A DNA stretch of 41,125 bases from an uncultured Flavobacteriales bacterium (GTDB taxonomy: Bacteria; Bacteroidota; Bacteroidia; Flavobacteriales_D; Crocinitomicaceae): positions 1 to 41,125 of the forward strand of contig CAJXMN010000013.1 in the NCBI GenBank assembly GCA_913056215.1. The letters are read 5' to 3'. A model generated the notes under the pieces. It worked only from the letters and a program-made list of their open reading frames with translations, searched no databases and was not told the DNA's origin. Positions 14,657 through 19,142 of the stretch are shown here, one piece after another. Position 1 is the first letter of the stretch. Every line of letters starts with the position of its first letter. The position numbers were made by a program, and so were the translations under genes.

Positions 14657-14660
14657 TCAG

Positions 14661-14733
14661 TGATCCCGCTGAGGCTCGAACTCAGGACCCACGCCTTAAA
14701 AGGGCGTTGCTCTACCAACTGAGCTACGGAATC
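14661..14733 (-). tRNA. tRNA-Lys (anticodon UUU)
   Basis: The 73-base minus-strand sequence folds as a complete tRNA. The acceptor stem pairs GATTCCG with CGGGATC (one T-G wobble), the D-arm contains AGCTCAGTTGGTAGAGC, the anticodon arm is ACGCC-CTTTTAA-GGCGT with anticodon TTT, and the T-arm is CTGAG-TTCGAGC-CTCAG. The discriminator base is A. The CCA tail is not encoded (the next bases are CTG), so CCA must be added by nucleotidyltransferase. It is a single-gene unit with its own promoter and terminator. Confidence 0.97.
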
Positions 14734-15079: not shown

Positions 15080-15754
15080 TCAACTTCCCAACGGCTGATC
15101 GAGCAAATAATAGTCAATGAATTCTCGGACACATCCTTTACCACCACGTTGTTGAAGAACGAGATTTACGTGTTGTTTGACAACCTGAACGGCATCAGCT
15201 GGACAGGCACTAAAACCAACTGATTTCATGACTTCCAAATCGTTTATATCGTCGCCTATAATGCCCACTTCTTCGAACGTGATCTCCATATCATCACACC
15301 ACGATTGCAAAACAGAAATCTTTGGTTCGCGACCTACATATATTCGTTCAATTTTCAATAGGTCTGCACGGTCTTTCACCATATTCAGCTTAAAACCAGA
15401 TGAAATAATCCCCACAGAATAGTGTGAATCGGCTAATGCGCGAACCGCCATCCCATCTTTAGCATTATATTGTTTCAATTGATCACCATTTTCGGTAAAA
15501 AACATTCCAGCATCAGTCATGACGCCATCAATATCGAGGATTAATAATTTTATTTGTTGCGCCTTTTGAGGATGAATAAACATCGGTTTCGTCAATAGAT
15601 TGTTGAAATCCAACTCCTCTTGCTGACAAAAGGCGTGAATTTTGCCAATTGACAAGTCTTCAATTTTCTTGACTTGTTGAGCGGTTAAAAACGCATCGTA
15701 ATCGCGCTCAACGCGCTGAAAATAAGCTTTAATATTTTGTTCAAGTAATTGCAT
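15080..15754 (-). CDS. KdsC-like HAD phosphatase with N-terminal extension
   Basis: The 224-residue protein is a HAD hydrolase of the KdsC (3-deoxy-D-manno-octulosonate 8-phosphate phosphatase) type, C0 class without cap. The nucleophile is Asp74 in LDIDGVMTD (Asp76 acid/base), motif II is IISSG (~117-120), Lys145 lies in REPK, and motif III is GDDINDL (~168-173). The tail RGGKGCVRE (~203-211) is a KdsC signature near the active site. KdsC is usually 170-190 residues; this one has about 65 extra N-terminal residues rich in Gln and charged residues, predicted helical, of unknown role. It overlaps the aldolase stop by one base (TAATG). It probably dephosphorylates the product of that aldolase, a 3-deoxy-ulosonate phosphate; which sugar is not certain. 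Confidence 0.85.
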   Translation of the reverse strand: MQLLEQNIKAYFQRVERDYDAFLTAQQVKKIEDLSIGKIHAFCQQEELDFNNLLTKPMFIHPQKAQQIKLLILDIDGVMTDAGMFFTENGDQLKQYNAKDGMAVRALADSHYSVGIISSGFKLNMVKDRADLLKIERIYVGREPKISVLQSWCDDMEITFEEVGIIGDDINDLEVMKSVGFSACPADAVQVVKQHVNLVLQQRGGKGCVREFIDYYLLDQPLGS

Positions 15755-16752
15755 TAAATTATCTTATAACCAACACTTTCTGCTACGGGTGTGATATTTT
15801 CTTTGAGTTGAATAAATTGTTCGTGCGTCAATTGCTGAGCTGCGTCCGATTTCGCAACGGTAGGATCCGGATGTGCCTCAATCAATAAACCATCAATGCC
15901 CATCGCTACGCACGCCTTTGCGAGTTTCTCAATTCCATATCGAAATCCGAGCGCGTGACTGGGATCCAATATGATTGGTAAATTGGTGTATTCTTGTAGA
16001 TAAGCAACTCCACAAAGATCGAGTGTAAATCGAGTTTTTGTTTCAAAGGTCCGAATGCCGCGCTCACACAAAATCACTTGGTCATTTCCGCCTGAAAGGA
16101 TAAATTCAGCAGCTTGCACAAACTCCTGCAGAGTTGTACCAAATCCGCGTTTGAGTAAAACGGGTTTATTGATCTTTGCACAGGCTCGGAGAATACCCTG
16201 GTCGTACATTGCTTTTGCGCCAATTTGAACAACATCACTGTATTCAATGACCTGATCAACTTGCGTGGCATCCCGCACTTCCGTGATAACACTAAGACCG
16301 TGCTCCTTGCGCATTTTAGCCAACAGTTTTAACCCTTCTAAACCGAGTCCCTGAAAACTGTATGGACTGGTGCGTGGTTTGAAGCAGCCTCCGCGCAATG
16401 TTGTCAATCCAAGTGATGTGAGTAGCTCAGCACTCTGCTGAATCTGTGTTTCAGATTCGACGGAACATGGACCTCCAATTAAAAGGGTATGATTGGTATC
16501 ACCGCCAATGGTTTGCGCGCCGATACGAACTGTACGTGTCTCCTCTTGAAATTCTCGTGAAGCAAGCTGCATATCATTCGGAAAAACCCATTCTTTATCC
16601 ACCTTTCCTGTTAGTAGTTCGGGTGTTGTCTTCACGGAGGAAGACGTGATCATATATTCGCTTCCCTGGTAAGTGACGTGAAAAGCTTTTACGCGATCAG
16701 CAAGAGCTGAAGCTTCATTTTTCGTAATCGTTGTCGCTAATTTTAAGATCAT
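15754..16752 (-). CDS. DAHP-synthase-like (type I-beta) PEP aldolase
   Basis: The 332-residue protein has a degenerate ferredoxin-like N-terminal domain (~1-80) and a (beta/alpha)8 barrel (~85-332) of the AroF/DAHP synthase I-beta class. Metal ligands are all present: Cys96 (GGPCSVES), His266 (DPSHALG), Glu292 (LIEAHPDP) and Asp303. The substrate loop GGCFKPRTSPYSFQG (~121-135) is of DAHP synthase type, with KPRTS rather than the KANRS of KdsA. Lys201-Arg202 (LLKRGF) and the ERGIRTFE block fit. What is odd is residues 178-185, GAKAMYDQ, where the family usually has GARNMQNF. No chorismate mutase domain is fused. It shares ATGA with the upstream gene. It condenses PEP with an aldose phosphate, probably erythrose 4-phosphate, but a changed substrate is possible. 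Confidence 0.82.
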   Translation of the reverse strand: MILKLATTITKNEASALADRVKAFHVTYQGSEYMITSSSVKTTPELLTGKVDKEWVFPNDMQLASREFQEETRTVRIGAQTIGGDTNHTLLIGGPCSVESETQIQQSAELLTSLGLTTLRGGCFKPRTSPYSFQGLGLEGLKLLAKMRKEHGLSVITEVRDATQVDQVIEYSDVVQIGAKAMYDQGILRACAKINKPVLLKRGFGTTLQEFVQAAEFILSGGNDQVILCERGIRTFETKTRFTLDLCGVAYLQEYTNLPIILDPSHALGFRYGIEKLAKACVAMGIDGLLIEAHPDPTVAKSDAAQQLTHEQFIQLKENITPVAESVGYKII

Positions 16753-17750
16753 ATCTCTCCTTTTATGAGGTTTACAAAGGTAACAATTCCTGCCGCATTT
16801 TGGGTGTTATCAAGGACGGGTAGGTAGGTTACTGGAAATGATTGGCCGCGGACTTTATTCAACATTTCGTCAACAGTGGCATTTGAAGCAATCGTGACTG
16901 GCATGTCGTTAATCATCGTGGTAGGATCCATTTCCTCGATATTGGATAAATGCTTGAGCAATGCTTTTCTGATGTCTGCATTTGAAATAATGCCGTGCAT
17001 TTGATGTTCATCTTCAACAATGGTAAAACCTAGTCCACCAGTTTCAATGGACTTGAGAATATTCTCCAGGGTCAAACGGCTTTTTTCGATGATTGGACAT
17101 TCTTCCCGAGGAATCATGAAATCTTTAATTTTGAACCGCGACTCAATTTCGCGTTTAGTGAGGTCCATCAATGCTTGTCCTACACTTGCAGCTTTAAATA
17201 AGAAACTGCCTGATACAGAGCTGTGCACACCCATATTGCGTAAAATGAATGATACTTCACCATTGACGCCACCATCAACATGAACATTTTTATTTGGATA
17301 TTTTTTGCGGAAAGCGCGTATTTTTCTAAAATTTTCGGGATCGAATACACCGCCACTTTGACCAGGAATAGTGGCCATCATCAAAATAAAGTCGAAATTA
17401 GTATACTTATCAAATGCCGTGATAGGAGTAGGTGTGATGATGGCTAAGCCTTTTTCACCAGCTATATCTGAAGGAATCTCTAGTTTATGATCCAGATCTT
17501 CGTATTGAAAAGTAACGTATTCTACCGGGTGCTTGCGCAAGAGGTCAAAATACTGCTCTGGTTGCTGGGTAATAATATGTAAATCAATTGGCATGGAACA
17601 CCATTCACGTATTTTAGCAATATCTTCAAATACCGATGGATCATCATTACAATCGACGTGTAGCATATCTACCTGATGCGCCTCTAGGTCCATAATTGTT
17701 GATTGAAGCGTACGTTTTTTATCGGAATAAATAGAACCGGATATTTTCAT
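16749..17750 (-). CDS. Ribulose-phosphate 3-epimerase-like domain fused to a CBS pair
   Basis: This 333-residue protein joins an Rpe-like (beta/alpha)8 barrel (~1-200) to two CBS domains (~207-333). The barrel keeps the metal and catalytic residues of Rpe at the expected places: His31 and Asp33 (LHVDCND), His58 (IDLHII) and Asp159 (HVDGGV), plus Ser6/Ser9. The phosphate-binding loop MATIPGQSGGVF (~125-136) corresponds to the Rpe MSVNPGFGGQ loop but is altered. The CBS pair, with GFTIVEDEHQMHGIIS and NADIRKAL, resembles the pair of KdsD (arabinose 5-phosphate isomerase), where it follows a SIS domain. The fusion suggests nucleotide- or metabolite-controlled pentose-phosphate chemistry. The protein is one base from the lipoprotein gene and 4 bases into the aldolase gene, so co-expression is certain if the region is transcribed. 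Confidence 0.8.
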   Translation of the reverse strand: MKISGSIYSDKKRTLQSTIMDLEAHQVDMLHVDCNDDPSVFEDIAKIREWCSMPIDLHIITQQPEQYFDLLRKHPVEYVTFQYEDLDHKLEIPSDIAGEKGLAIITPTPITAFDKYTNFDFILMMATIPGQSGGVFDPENFRKIRAFRKKYPNKNVHVDGGVNGEVSFILRNMGVHSSVSGSFLFKAASVGQALMDLTKREIESRFKIKDFMIPREECPIIEKSRLTLENILKSIETGGLGFTIVEDEHQMHGIISNADIRKALLKHLSNIEEMDPTTMINDMPVTIASNATVDEMLNKVRGQSFPVTYLPVLDNTQNAAGIVTFVNLIKGEI

Positions 17751-17751
17751 A

Positions 17752-18132
17752 TTAATTTCTTTCTAAAGGACGAAACGTATTATCTGTGATCACAATACGT
17801 GTCTCGTTATTAAATATCTTTTTTTCAAGTTTGCGCGAAAGCGCTTGAAGTTGGGATTGTTCGCTAATAGCAAGTGGGTCGTTCTGATAACCTTTCCGTT
17901 CAATTAGTTTTATGAGTATCTCTCCATTTTCTTTTTCCAGCTGTATAGTTTGTTTGCGATCACCTACAAAACCGTGGTTCTGCCAATAAGTAGCGAATTG
18001 AATAGCTGTCTTTTTGTCTATACCTTCTAGGTAATAAACACTCAGATTGTCGCCATCTACGCGATTGCCCATGGGAACACCACATGCTCCAAAGATGGCT
18101 ACAATAAATATAAGATGAAGTAGATATTTCAT
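17752..18132 (-). CDS. Small hypothetical lipoprotein, first gene of the Rpe-CBS operon
   Basis: From ATG 18130-18132 the product is 126 residues with a short signal and lipobox IFGAC (~residue 17). The mature domain (~20-126) shows an alternating pattern with LSVYYLEGIDKKTAIQFATYW, KQTIQLEKENGEILIKLIE and a C-terminal IVITDNTFRPLER, resembling a small alpha/beta fold. A TTG three codons upstream could start the same frame but would sit inside a -7-like box. Its stop is one base before the start of the Rpe-CBS gene. I do not recognise the family, and its link to the sugar enzymes may be only positional. Confidence 0.65.
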   Translation of the reverse strand: MKYLLHLIFIVAIFGACGVPMGNRVDGDNLSVYYLEGIDKKTAIQFATYWQNHGFVGDRKQTIQLEKENGEILIKLIERKGYQNDPLAISEQSQLQALSRKLEKKIFNNETRIVITDNTFRPLERN

Positions 18133-18289: not shown

Positions 18290-18311
18290 GAAGTTGCAAA
18301 ATTTGAATGAG

Positions 18312-19142
18312 ATGAAATTGAAAAACGCCGTATACCGTGGAGCTGAGGGGCGCGAGTCATTGATAGATTTAGAAACTCCTGATAAAGTGAGATGTGAAGA
18401 TATTGTTGTCTTTGTACATGGTTATAAAGGGTTCAAGGATTGGGGATGTTGGAACATGGTACAACAGTATTTTATCGATCGCGGTATCGGGTTTTGTAAA
18501 ATGAATTTGAGTCACAACGGTGGAACTGTTGATGAACCGATTGATTTTCCTGATTTGGATGCTTTTGGCGATAATCGATACTCTTATGAAGTGAAAGACA
18601 TCGAAGAGGTTATGGAGTGGATCATGAATCAGCTTGAAGAACTGGATATCAATTTACACCTAATCGGTCATAGTCGTGGTGGAGGAGATGTTATTTTAAC
18701 AGGACATCATCCGCGAGTAAAATCGGTAATTACTTGGGCGGGAATTGATTCCATACCAGCACGATTCCCGGAAGGAGAGGAGTTGGAAAAATGGAGAAAA
18801 GAAGGAGTGCGCCATGTGAAAAACGGAAGGACAGGTCAGGAAATGCCTCATCGCTTTAGCATGTATGAAGATTGGGAACAACATAAGGAAGCACTTTCTA
18901 TAGAGAAGAAAGCACAACAACTCGATAAACCGACATTACACTTGCATGGAGATATTGATGAAGCGGTTTCGATTACTGCTTCGGAAAATCTCAGTCGCTG
19001 GACAGAAGGGAAAATGATAGTGATTCGCGATGCCAATCATACTTTTGGATCAAAACATCCTTTCGAAGATGATCACTTACCCCCCAAACTTTATGAAGTT
19101 TGCTCGTTAACGCTCCAGTTTATTGAAAAGCAAGGAAATTAG
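18312..19142 (+). CDS. Alpha/beta hydrolase
   Basis: From ATG 18312 the protein has 276 residues and the alpha/beta-hydrolase fold: oxyanion segment FVHGYKGFKD (~34-43), nucleophile elbow GHSRGG with Ser121, an Asp in LHGDIDEAV (~210) and the catalytic His in ANHTFG (~240). There is no signal peptide, so it acts in the cytoplasm. The sequence around the active site (GYKGFKDWGCWNMV) is that of the dienelactone hydrolase/serine aminopeptidase-like group, and the substrate is not evident. It stands alone, divergent from the lipoprotein-Rpe operon. Confidence 0.85.
   Translation: MKLKNAVYRGAEGRESLIDLETPDKVRCEDIVVFVHGYKGFKDWGCWNMVQQYFIDRGIGFCKMNLSHNGGTVDEPIDFPDLDAFGDNRYSYEVKDIEEVMEWIMNQLEELDINLHLIGHSRGGGDVILTGHHPRVKSVITWAGIDSIPARFPEGEELEKWRKEGVRHVKNGRTGQEMPHRFSMYEDWEQHKEALSIEKKAQQLDKPTLHLHGDIDEAVSITASENLSRWTEGKMIVIRDANHTFGSKHPFEDDHLPPKLYEVCSLTLQFIEKQGN

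Follow-up and report, generated by a model that had tools for sequence, protein, structure and literature searches.

The DNA analysed here (the window, 41,125 nucleotides) is contig C13 of genome G000, from an uncultured Flavobacteriales bacterium; the assembly comprises 3.2 Mb in 192 contigs and is 100% complete by the tool's figure. Four open reading frames (ORFs) lie end to end on the minus strand, from 18132 to 15080 in the ORF list of the window. They encode a small lipoprotein-like protein, a fusion of an Rpe-type domain with a CBS pair (Rpe-CBS), an aldolase of the 3-deoxy-D-arabino-heptulosonate 7-phosphate (DAHP) synthase type (ALD) and a KdsC-like phosphatase. The lipoprotein-like gene and Rpe-CBS are separated by a gap of 1 base, Rpe-CBS and ALD overlap by 4 bases (ATGA), and ALD and the phosphatase gene overlap by 1 base (TAATG). 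A first-pass annotation of this DNA had described four tightly packed minus-strand genes and had named an Rpe-like/CBS fusion, a DAHP-synthase-like aldolase and a KdsC-like phosphatase. The junctions bear out the packing, and the Pfam and NCBIfam profiles bear out the family calls. It had also proposed that the operon copies the KdsD-KdsA-KdsC series of 3-deoxy-D-manno-octulosonate (Kdo) synthesis with exchanged catalytic parts, and this proposal is the subject of the present analysis. The gene content, gene order, mutual exclusion and residue conservation reported below were computed directly.

Table 1. Positions of the operon genes, their domains and the neighbouring features in the window
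Feature	Position	Strand	Remarks
Small lipoprotein-like gene, first of the cluster	17752..18132	-	126 amino acids; signal peptide with Cys, read by eye
Rpe-CBS gene, whole	16749-17750	-	PF00834 + CBS
Rpe-fold catalytic domain of Rpe-CBS	17139..17750	-	Residues 1-204; PF00834; proposed arabinose-5-phosphate former
CBS pair of Rpe-CBS	16752..17135	-	Residues 206-333; regulatory module, probably KdsD-type
ALD, DAHP-synthase-type (I-beta) aldolase	15754..16752	-	Separate clade; N-terminal domain of ~60 amino acids; proposed Kdo-8-phosphate synthase
KdsC-like HAD phosphatase	15080..15754	-	N-terminal extension of ~60 amino acids; proposed Kdo-8-phosphate phosphatase
Divergent alpha/beta hydrolase, context marker only	18294..19142	+	Relatives flank the kdsD-kdsA-kdsB cluster of KdsA-positive genomes (L065, L089, L090)
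tRNA-Lys (anticodon TTT)	14660-14733	-	Downstream of the operon

The catalytic part of Rpe-CBS matched PF00834 with 83.9 bits, in addition to the CBS match, and no SIS domain was found among the Pfam matches of the protein. With the Rpe equivalog model TIGR01163 it reached 74.1 bits, far under the cut-off of 212.6. We observed that H31, D33, H58 and D159, which we take to be the metal ligands and the acid/base pair, are invariant in 36/36 family members and are also kept when compared with ordinary Rpe. An ordinary Rpe is present besides Rpe-CBS in six f1 genomes (f1 being the family that includes the window), and the substrate site was compared with six ordinary Rpe proteins of f1 genomes other than the window's. 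In Rpe-CBS, NDD... stands in place of MDGxFVPNxSFG, with six residues fewer, and PGFGGQ has become PGQSGG. Other changes at the site are H(L/I)M to HII, THYE or VHYE to FQYE, and VAGS to VSGS. Judged from its sequence, the Rpe domain has kept the catalytic residues while its substrate site has been remodelled. The structure model of Rpe-CBS had a pLDDT of 91.1, and the best folds in the PDB were those of Rpe. Rpe itself (2fli, Z 24.1) ranked slightly above D-allulose-6-phosphate 3-epimerase (AlsE, 3ct7, Z 22.3), a comparison at the level of fold only, from which the substrate cannot be told.

No CBS chain was present among the 50 rows ranked by Z, and the CBS pair was searched against the PDB as a family profile. 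The best match was the CBS pair of an arabinose 5-phosphate (A5P) isomerase, 4o9k, with an E-value of 4.9e-11 in one search; this structure presumably holds CMP-Kdo. A second profile search again placed 4o9k first (1.2e-11), with the modest margin of 47.9 bits vs 43.0 bits for the next match, and two other A5P isomerases, 3k2v and 3fna, came further down the list. Foldseek also ranked 4o9k as the top CBS pair (E 1.3e-8). These matches point to a likely KdsD-type origin of the CBS pair, and a nearest match is not proof of descent. At five loci of family f15 (L178, L179, L187, L188 and L200) the Rpe proteins of the operon have no recognisable CBS part (three tested).

ALD scored 317.9 bits with TIGR01361 (cut-off 267.75) and 365.3 bits with NF006421 (cut-off 335), both of which are DAHP synthase models. 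With the KdsA model, TIGR01362, it scored 121.6 bits, under the cut-off of 314. The residues C96, H266, E292 and D303, whose role we assume to be metal binding, are invariant in 36/36 sequences. ALD differed at 30 conserved columns from a set of ten ordinary DAHP synthases taken from the order; some of its residues there (e.g. TRFTLD) are common to solved DAHP synthases. ALD has GAKAMYDQGIL where both the ordinary enzymes and the solved DAHP synthases shown have GARNxQN. A tree was built from 67 rows, which included 48 ALD sequences of Rpe-CBS genomes, 8 ALD sequences of KdsA-positive genomes and the 10 ordinary DAHP synthases. The ordinary enzymes fell on their own side of a branch with a support of 99/100, the outgroup row being a long branch. 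The ALD sequences of Rpe-CBS genomes and those of KdsA-positive genomes grouped together with no clean separation.

The window's own genome also encodes a DAHP synthase/chorismate mutase fusion (PF00793 + PF01817). We considered whether a KdsA might be hidden elsewhere in this genome. PF00793 and TIGR01362 gave two matches each and no further KdsA-type aldolase was found; the PF00793 matches were ALD and the fusion, and a hidden KdsA was rejected.

The phosphatase passed the subfamily cut-off of TIGR01670 (144.7 bits; cut-off 106.95) and fell under the equivalog cut-off of PRK09484 (143.2 bits; cut-off 208). It carries the motif DIDGVMTD. The N-terminal extension (window 15569-15754) occurs in many relatives, and the long form is found in KdsA-positive relatives as well. 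One of the five extensions tested gave a sub-threshold match to HTH_3 (L068; E 0.0026, 18.2 bits, cut-off 23), which would fit a degenerate helix-turn-helix; the window's own extension gave no meaningful match in the same domain search.

We then looked at the order of these genes in relatives, a lack of which the first-pass annotation had named beforehand as a possible refutation. ALD directly follows Rpe-CBS in 29/30 f1 loci (L003-L032, the window being L003). The lone exception is L011 (G139), where ALD and KdsC are found on the same contig at a distance of about 11 kb. Rpe-CBS is followed by ALD in 19 of the 22 loci taken from the nearest public records, which are partly the same genomes; of the other three, L048 has no ALD within its 21 kb, and the contigs of L047 and L060 are short. 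Outside f1, 70 genomes of the class survey bear the operon, and 32 of their loci (L161-L191, L200) were read. In all 32, ALD lies at most three genes from Rpe, and a KdsC-family gene follows in 26. Every one of the 69 Rpe-CBS genomes in the order survey has ALD (>=60% identity) and at least one KdsC-family gene. The order Rpe-CBS, ALD, KdsC-like phosphatase is thus conserved across the class, and the proposal was not refuted on this count.

Two loci deserve mention on their own. In G344 (f49; L163:4401-6033) a type II restriction-modification pair, an N6_N4 methylase (PF01555) and an EcoO109I-type endonuclease (PF14511), is inserted between Rpe-CBS and ALD. In G145 (L066, G145:C37:68-1728) ALD and KdsC lie at a contig start, and neither Rpe-CBS nor KdsA was found in the assembly, which probably reflects an assembly gap.

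The distribution of Rpe-CBS and of the canonical enzymes was surveyed in 199 genomes of the order and in 395 genomes of the class. Among the former, 69 had Rpe-CBS, 121 had KdsA, none had both and 9 had neither. The class survey gave the same picture, with Rpe-CBS in 82 genomes, KdsA in 286, both in 0 and neither in 27. If the two were independent, about 42 genomes of the order and about 59 of the class would be expected to have both, figures that are uncorrected for kinship. Canonical kdsA elsewhere in the genome, the presence of which the first-pass annotation had left to be checked, is therefore completely excluded in the surveyed genomes with Rpe-CBS (0/199 and 0/395 with both).

These counts depend on a few decisions. 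The 121 KdsA genomes of the order are made up of 115 over the cut-off and six fragments or near-misses (G114, G144, G011, G042, G132, G101), which were near the full score, cut by a contig end or split; the overlap with Rpe-CBS stays 0 with or without these six. In the class, KdsA was counted at E<=1e-60 (286 genomes, 279 of them over the cut-off). The Rpe match of G128 (8.5e-17; residues 6-205; 30% identity) was left out of the Rpe-CBS count as an ordinary Rpe, and G145, with ALD and no Rpe-CBS or KdsA match, was counted under neither. The 82 class genomes include 8 of f15 that match mainly the Rpe part, and number 74 without them. We observed that both systems occur in 15 families (f1, f3, f8, f10, f17, f23, f28, f32, f35, f39, f40, f45, f49, f57 and f73) and inside five genera (g13, g81, g85, g88 and g110). 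Since this is so, a single shared ancestor cannot explain the exclusion.

KdsD was searched for with TIGR00393 at E<=1e-20. Matches were found in 115 of the 199 order genomes, and only one of the 69 Rpe-CBS genomes was among them (G076, a 205-residue SIS protein with 92.5 bits, lying among genes that read as polysaccharide genes). Two of the 70 operon-bearing class genomes outside f1 gave a match, G351 and G252, and the match of G252 covers the CBS half only; the KdsD-like SIS protein of G351, an f15 genome, is at L199. None of the 70 passed the KdsD cut-off of 203.7 bits. The SIS-only KdsD proteins of KdsA-positive genomes also miss this cut-off (~157-175 bits), and the count by E-value is therefore the fair measure. 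The exclusion of canonical kdsD is nearly complete by this measure (1/69 and 2/70). Together, the conserved gene order and the exclusion of KdsA and KdsD support the claim that the operon is a copy of the KdsD-KdsA-KdsC series in which catalytic parts have been exchanged.

The genus g13, which belongs to the window's family, shows the same locus with and without the pair. In G149 and G194 (L091, L092) the hydrolase gene is followed by the lipoprotein gene, Rpe-CBS, ALD, KdsC and two further genes, with one extra gene between ALD and KdsC in G194. In G153 and G187 (L079, L080) Rpe-CBS and ALD are gone, and what is kept is the hydrolase gene, KdsC and the two further genes; these two genomes carry kdsD-kdsA elsewhere (L063, L064). 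A related divergent hydrolase flanks kdsD-kdsA-kdsB-ALD in genus g34 of family f3 (L065, L089, L090). From these hydrolase-flanked settings it follows that the Rpe-CBS/ALD pair sits in a kds-like setting, and that ALD adjoins kds genes in some KdsA-positive genomes. At L065:5308-8411, L089 and L090, kdsD-kdsA-kdsB and the DAHP-synthase-type ALD form one tight cluster, with two phosphoenolpyruvate (PEP) aldolases side by side.

The lipoprotein-like gene gave no match in the Pfam and NCBIfam searches. A similar gene lies upstream in close f1 relatives and at some other f1 loci, and most loci are without it; it is probably outside the pathway.

The later steps of Kdo metabolism were also evaluated. 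KdsB of the CTP_transf_3 type was found in 29/30 relatives, the window's own genome included. KdsB proper (TIGR00466 over the cut-off) was found in 72/80 genomes, that is, in 70 of the 78 with Rpe-CBS and in the KdsA-positive G153 and G187. An alignment of 42 KdsB sequences of Rpe-CBS genomes with 13 canonical ones (12 from genomes with KdsA, and that of G005, which has KdsD and in which no KdsA was found) contained no column in which each group was fixed (at 90%) for a residue of its own; in a smaller set, one I/V column differed. As KdsB shows no fixed difference between the groups, the sugar is expected to be the same or nearly so. WaaA (PF04413) was found in 30/30 relatives of either type, the window's own genome included.

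We think it probable that in this operon the enzymes for the first two steps of Kdo synthesis have been replaced by non-orthologous ones, with Rpe-CBS in the place of KdsD and ALD in the place of KdsA. All enzyme activities, the product and the regulation in this scheme are what we infer from the genes. Rpe-CBS, a metal-dependent barrel of the Rpe type with a CBS pair that is probably KdsD-type, would supply A5P. It would most likely do so either by epimerising ribose 5-phosphate at carbon 2, with the two-aspartate mechanism that it has retained, or by isomerising ribulose 5-phosphate. Rpe takes a proton next to the carbonyl and returns one on the other face, using two aspartates. The same chemistry one carbon along, at the aldehyde of ribose 5-phosphate, would give arabinose 5-phosphate, and the spacing from the phosphate to the reacting carbon would then equal that of the allulose-6-phosphate epimerase of the same fold. 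ALD would condense A5P with PEP to give Kdo-8-phosphate; I-beta DAHP synthases that accept five-carbon substrates are known from the literature. The KdsC-like phosphatase would free Kdo from Kdo-8-phosphate, and the ordinary KdsB and WaaA, encoded elsewhere in the genome, would activate Kdo and attach it to lipid A. What the CBS pair senses is probably a nucleotide of the pathway, either CMP-Kdo or an adenylate, and this would give end-product control.

Each of the three proteins can be set beside known ones. Rpe-CBS resembles KdsD/KpsF/GutQ (TIGR00393) in its place in the operon, in a CBS pair that is nearest by family profile (by the modest margin given above), in its proposed product A5P and in its nearly exclusive distribution; however, its catalytic domain is a TIM barrel of the Rpe type, whereas that of KdsD is a SIS domain. 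With Rpe (PF00834, TIGR01163) and D-allulose-6-phosphate 3-epimerase (3ct7) it shares the fold and the four presumed metal and catalytic residues, but not the score (74.1 of 212.6 bits), the FVPNxSFG loop, which is six residues shorter, the PGQSGG motif or the added CBS pair. With DAHP synthase of type I-beta (NF006421, TIGR01361; 1rzm of T. maritima and 1zco of P. furiosus) ALD has in common the fold, the presumed metal ligands, an N-terminal domain and two motifs, KPRTSP and DPSH. It differs in being split from the ten ordinary DAHP synthases of the order, in having GAKAMYDQGIL for GARNxQN and in its genomic context. It would share with KdsA (TIGR01362) the proposed reaction, and it has the same operon position and superfamily fold, but it falls far short in score (121.6 bits vs the cut-off of 314) and is without KANRS. 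The phosphatase belongs with KdsC (TIGR01670) by its HAD family and by its score over the subfamily cut-off; the N-terminal extension in the window and many relatives sets it apart.

Several observations weigh against a replacement of both steps. The genome counts are not independent events, and 9/199 and 27/395 genomes have neither system. On the CBS pair, phmmer with the single window sequence matched only CorC CBS pairs, and NCBIfam puts CbpB (27.7 bits) just above KpsF (25.7 bits). Family f15, which makes up 8 of the 82 class genomes, matches the Rpe part only, with no CBS domain in the three tested. Within f15, G351 has the operon and also a SIS protein of 207 residues (153 bits) that is 49% identical to the KdsD of G035, and this is a true exception to the exclusion of KdsD. 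Such a case would fit a situation where only one of the swaps is real, for example, where Kdo-8-phosphate is indeed made by ALD but a different isomerase supplies the A5P and Rpe-CBS does no more than tune the pentose pool. We know of no precedent for the formation of A5P by an Rpe fold, and ALD occurs both with and without Rpe-CBS, both of which would also agree with a single swap. However, the gene that excludes KdsA is Rpe-CBS and not ALD, no KdsD match was obtained in 68/69 and 68/70 genomes, and Rpe-CBS combines a CBS profile nearest to that of KdsD with an altered substrate site. A single swap thus appears rather improbable to us.

Further adverse points concern ALD and the rest of the pathway. 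ALD is over the NCBI equivalog-domain cut-off as a DAHP synthase. It has KPRTSP and DPSH, which we take to be DAHP synthase motifs, and KANRS, presumably the KdsA motif, is absent with KPRTS in its place. ALD also stands beside KdsA in 9 of the 121 KdsA-positive order genomes, in some of them inside the kds cluster. By itself, ALD is not tied to the loss of KdsA, and this is the main point against a simple equation of ALD with KdsA. Most f1 genomes, the window's own included, have a second KdsC-family gene. KdsB over the TIGR00466 cut-off was not found in 8 of the 78 Rpe-CBS genomes (G021, G239, G337, G378, G411, G437, G500 and G549, five of which are <85% complete). The waaA of the window's own genome (L075:4702-5916, G000:C72) is split by one in-frame stop into parts of 182 and 196 residues; either the gene is truly broken or the stop stems from an error in the sequence.

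The name that the NCBI models give to ALD, its co-occurrence with KdsA, the KdsB missing from 8/78 genomes and the stop in waaA would all be in keeping with ordinary metabolism, in which a regulated Rpe paralogue, an aromatic DAHP synthase and a stray phosphatase lie together and Kdo is either absent or the product of enzymes not recognised as such. We regard this as very unlikely, since the complete exclusion of KdsA would not be expected from it and the genome already has the DAHP synthase/chorismate mutase fusion. Moreover, the order's ordinary DAHP synthases branch apart from ALD, six f1 genomes have an ordinary Rpe besides Rpe-CBS, and KdsB is kept in 70/78. An operon of the ordinary aromatic pathway was rejected as the main explanation on the first two of these grounds. 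The regulated supply of DAHP suggested in the first-pass annotation fails in the same way, as it leaves the absence of KdsA from exactly these genomes unexplained, and the fusion is present in the genome.

The same annotation had also suggested an undescribed 3-deoxy-ulosonic acid. Of this, the Kdo-like pathway stands, and a novel acid is not needed (KdsB kept in 70/78 and without a fixed change between the two groups, WaaA in 30/30). A different acid, built on erythrose 4-phosphate, say, or on some other aldose phosphate, could replace Kdo in the lipid A anchor if it were accepted by KdsB and WaaA. The DAHP-synthase motifs and score of ALD, the altered Rpe site, and the operon genomes themselves, where KdsA was not found and KdsD hardly ever, could be read in this way. 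Against it are the absence of a fixed difference in KdsB (42 vs 13 sequences), the CBS profile nearest to that of KdsD, and the interchange of the two systems within one genus, which would be easier with an identical product. We therefore consider another acid unlikely, and Kdo the more likely product.

Returning to the replacement of KdsD and KdsA, a more specific form of it can be stated, on which we are evenly divided. Here Rpe-CBS would be a new class of enzyme, an aldose-phosphate 2-epimerase of the Rpe fold that converts ribose 5-phosphate to A5P under CMP-Kdo feedback through a KdsD-type CBS pair. With ALD, Kdo-8-phosphate synthase would have arisen a second time, independently, out of the DAHP synthase family, and the pair would replace KdsD-KdsA in roughly a fifth of the sampled Bacteroidia species (82/395).

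The enzymes of Kdo synthesis are usually regarded as an invariable set, and the pathway serves as a target in the design of antibacterials. Our searches of the open-access literature, which covered titles and the starts of abstracts and had subscription journals and preprints outside their scope, gave no account of this replacement. The part of PMC3087551 consulted, on the evolution of Kdo2-lipid A, treats the lpx and waaA genes. Kdo is the sugar acid that anchors the outer-membrane lipopolysaccharide, and two consecutive core enzymes of its synthesis seem to have given way to unrelated or distant ones on more than one occasion, also inside single genera. Annotation would hide the exchange, as the NCBI models label ALD a DAHP synthase; such genomes therefore look Kdo-deficient, or seem to possess an additional DAHP synthase. 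If the replacement is true, it would provide a new fold for the formation of A5P, an example from nature of a substrate switch between the DAHP and the Kdo-8-phosphate synthases, and a CBS module that has moved between catalytic domains.

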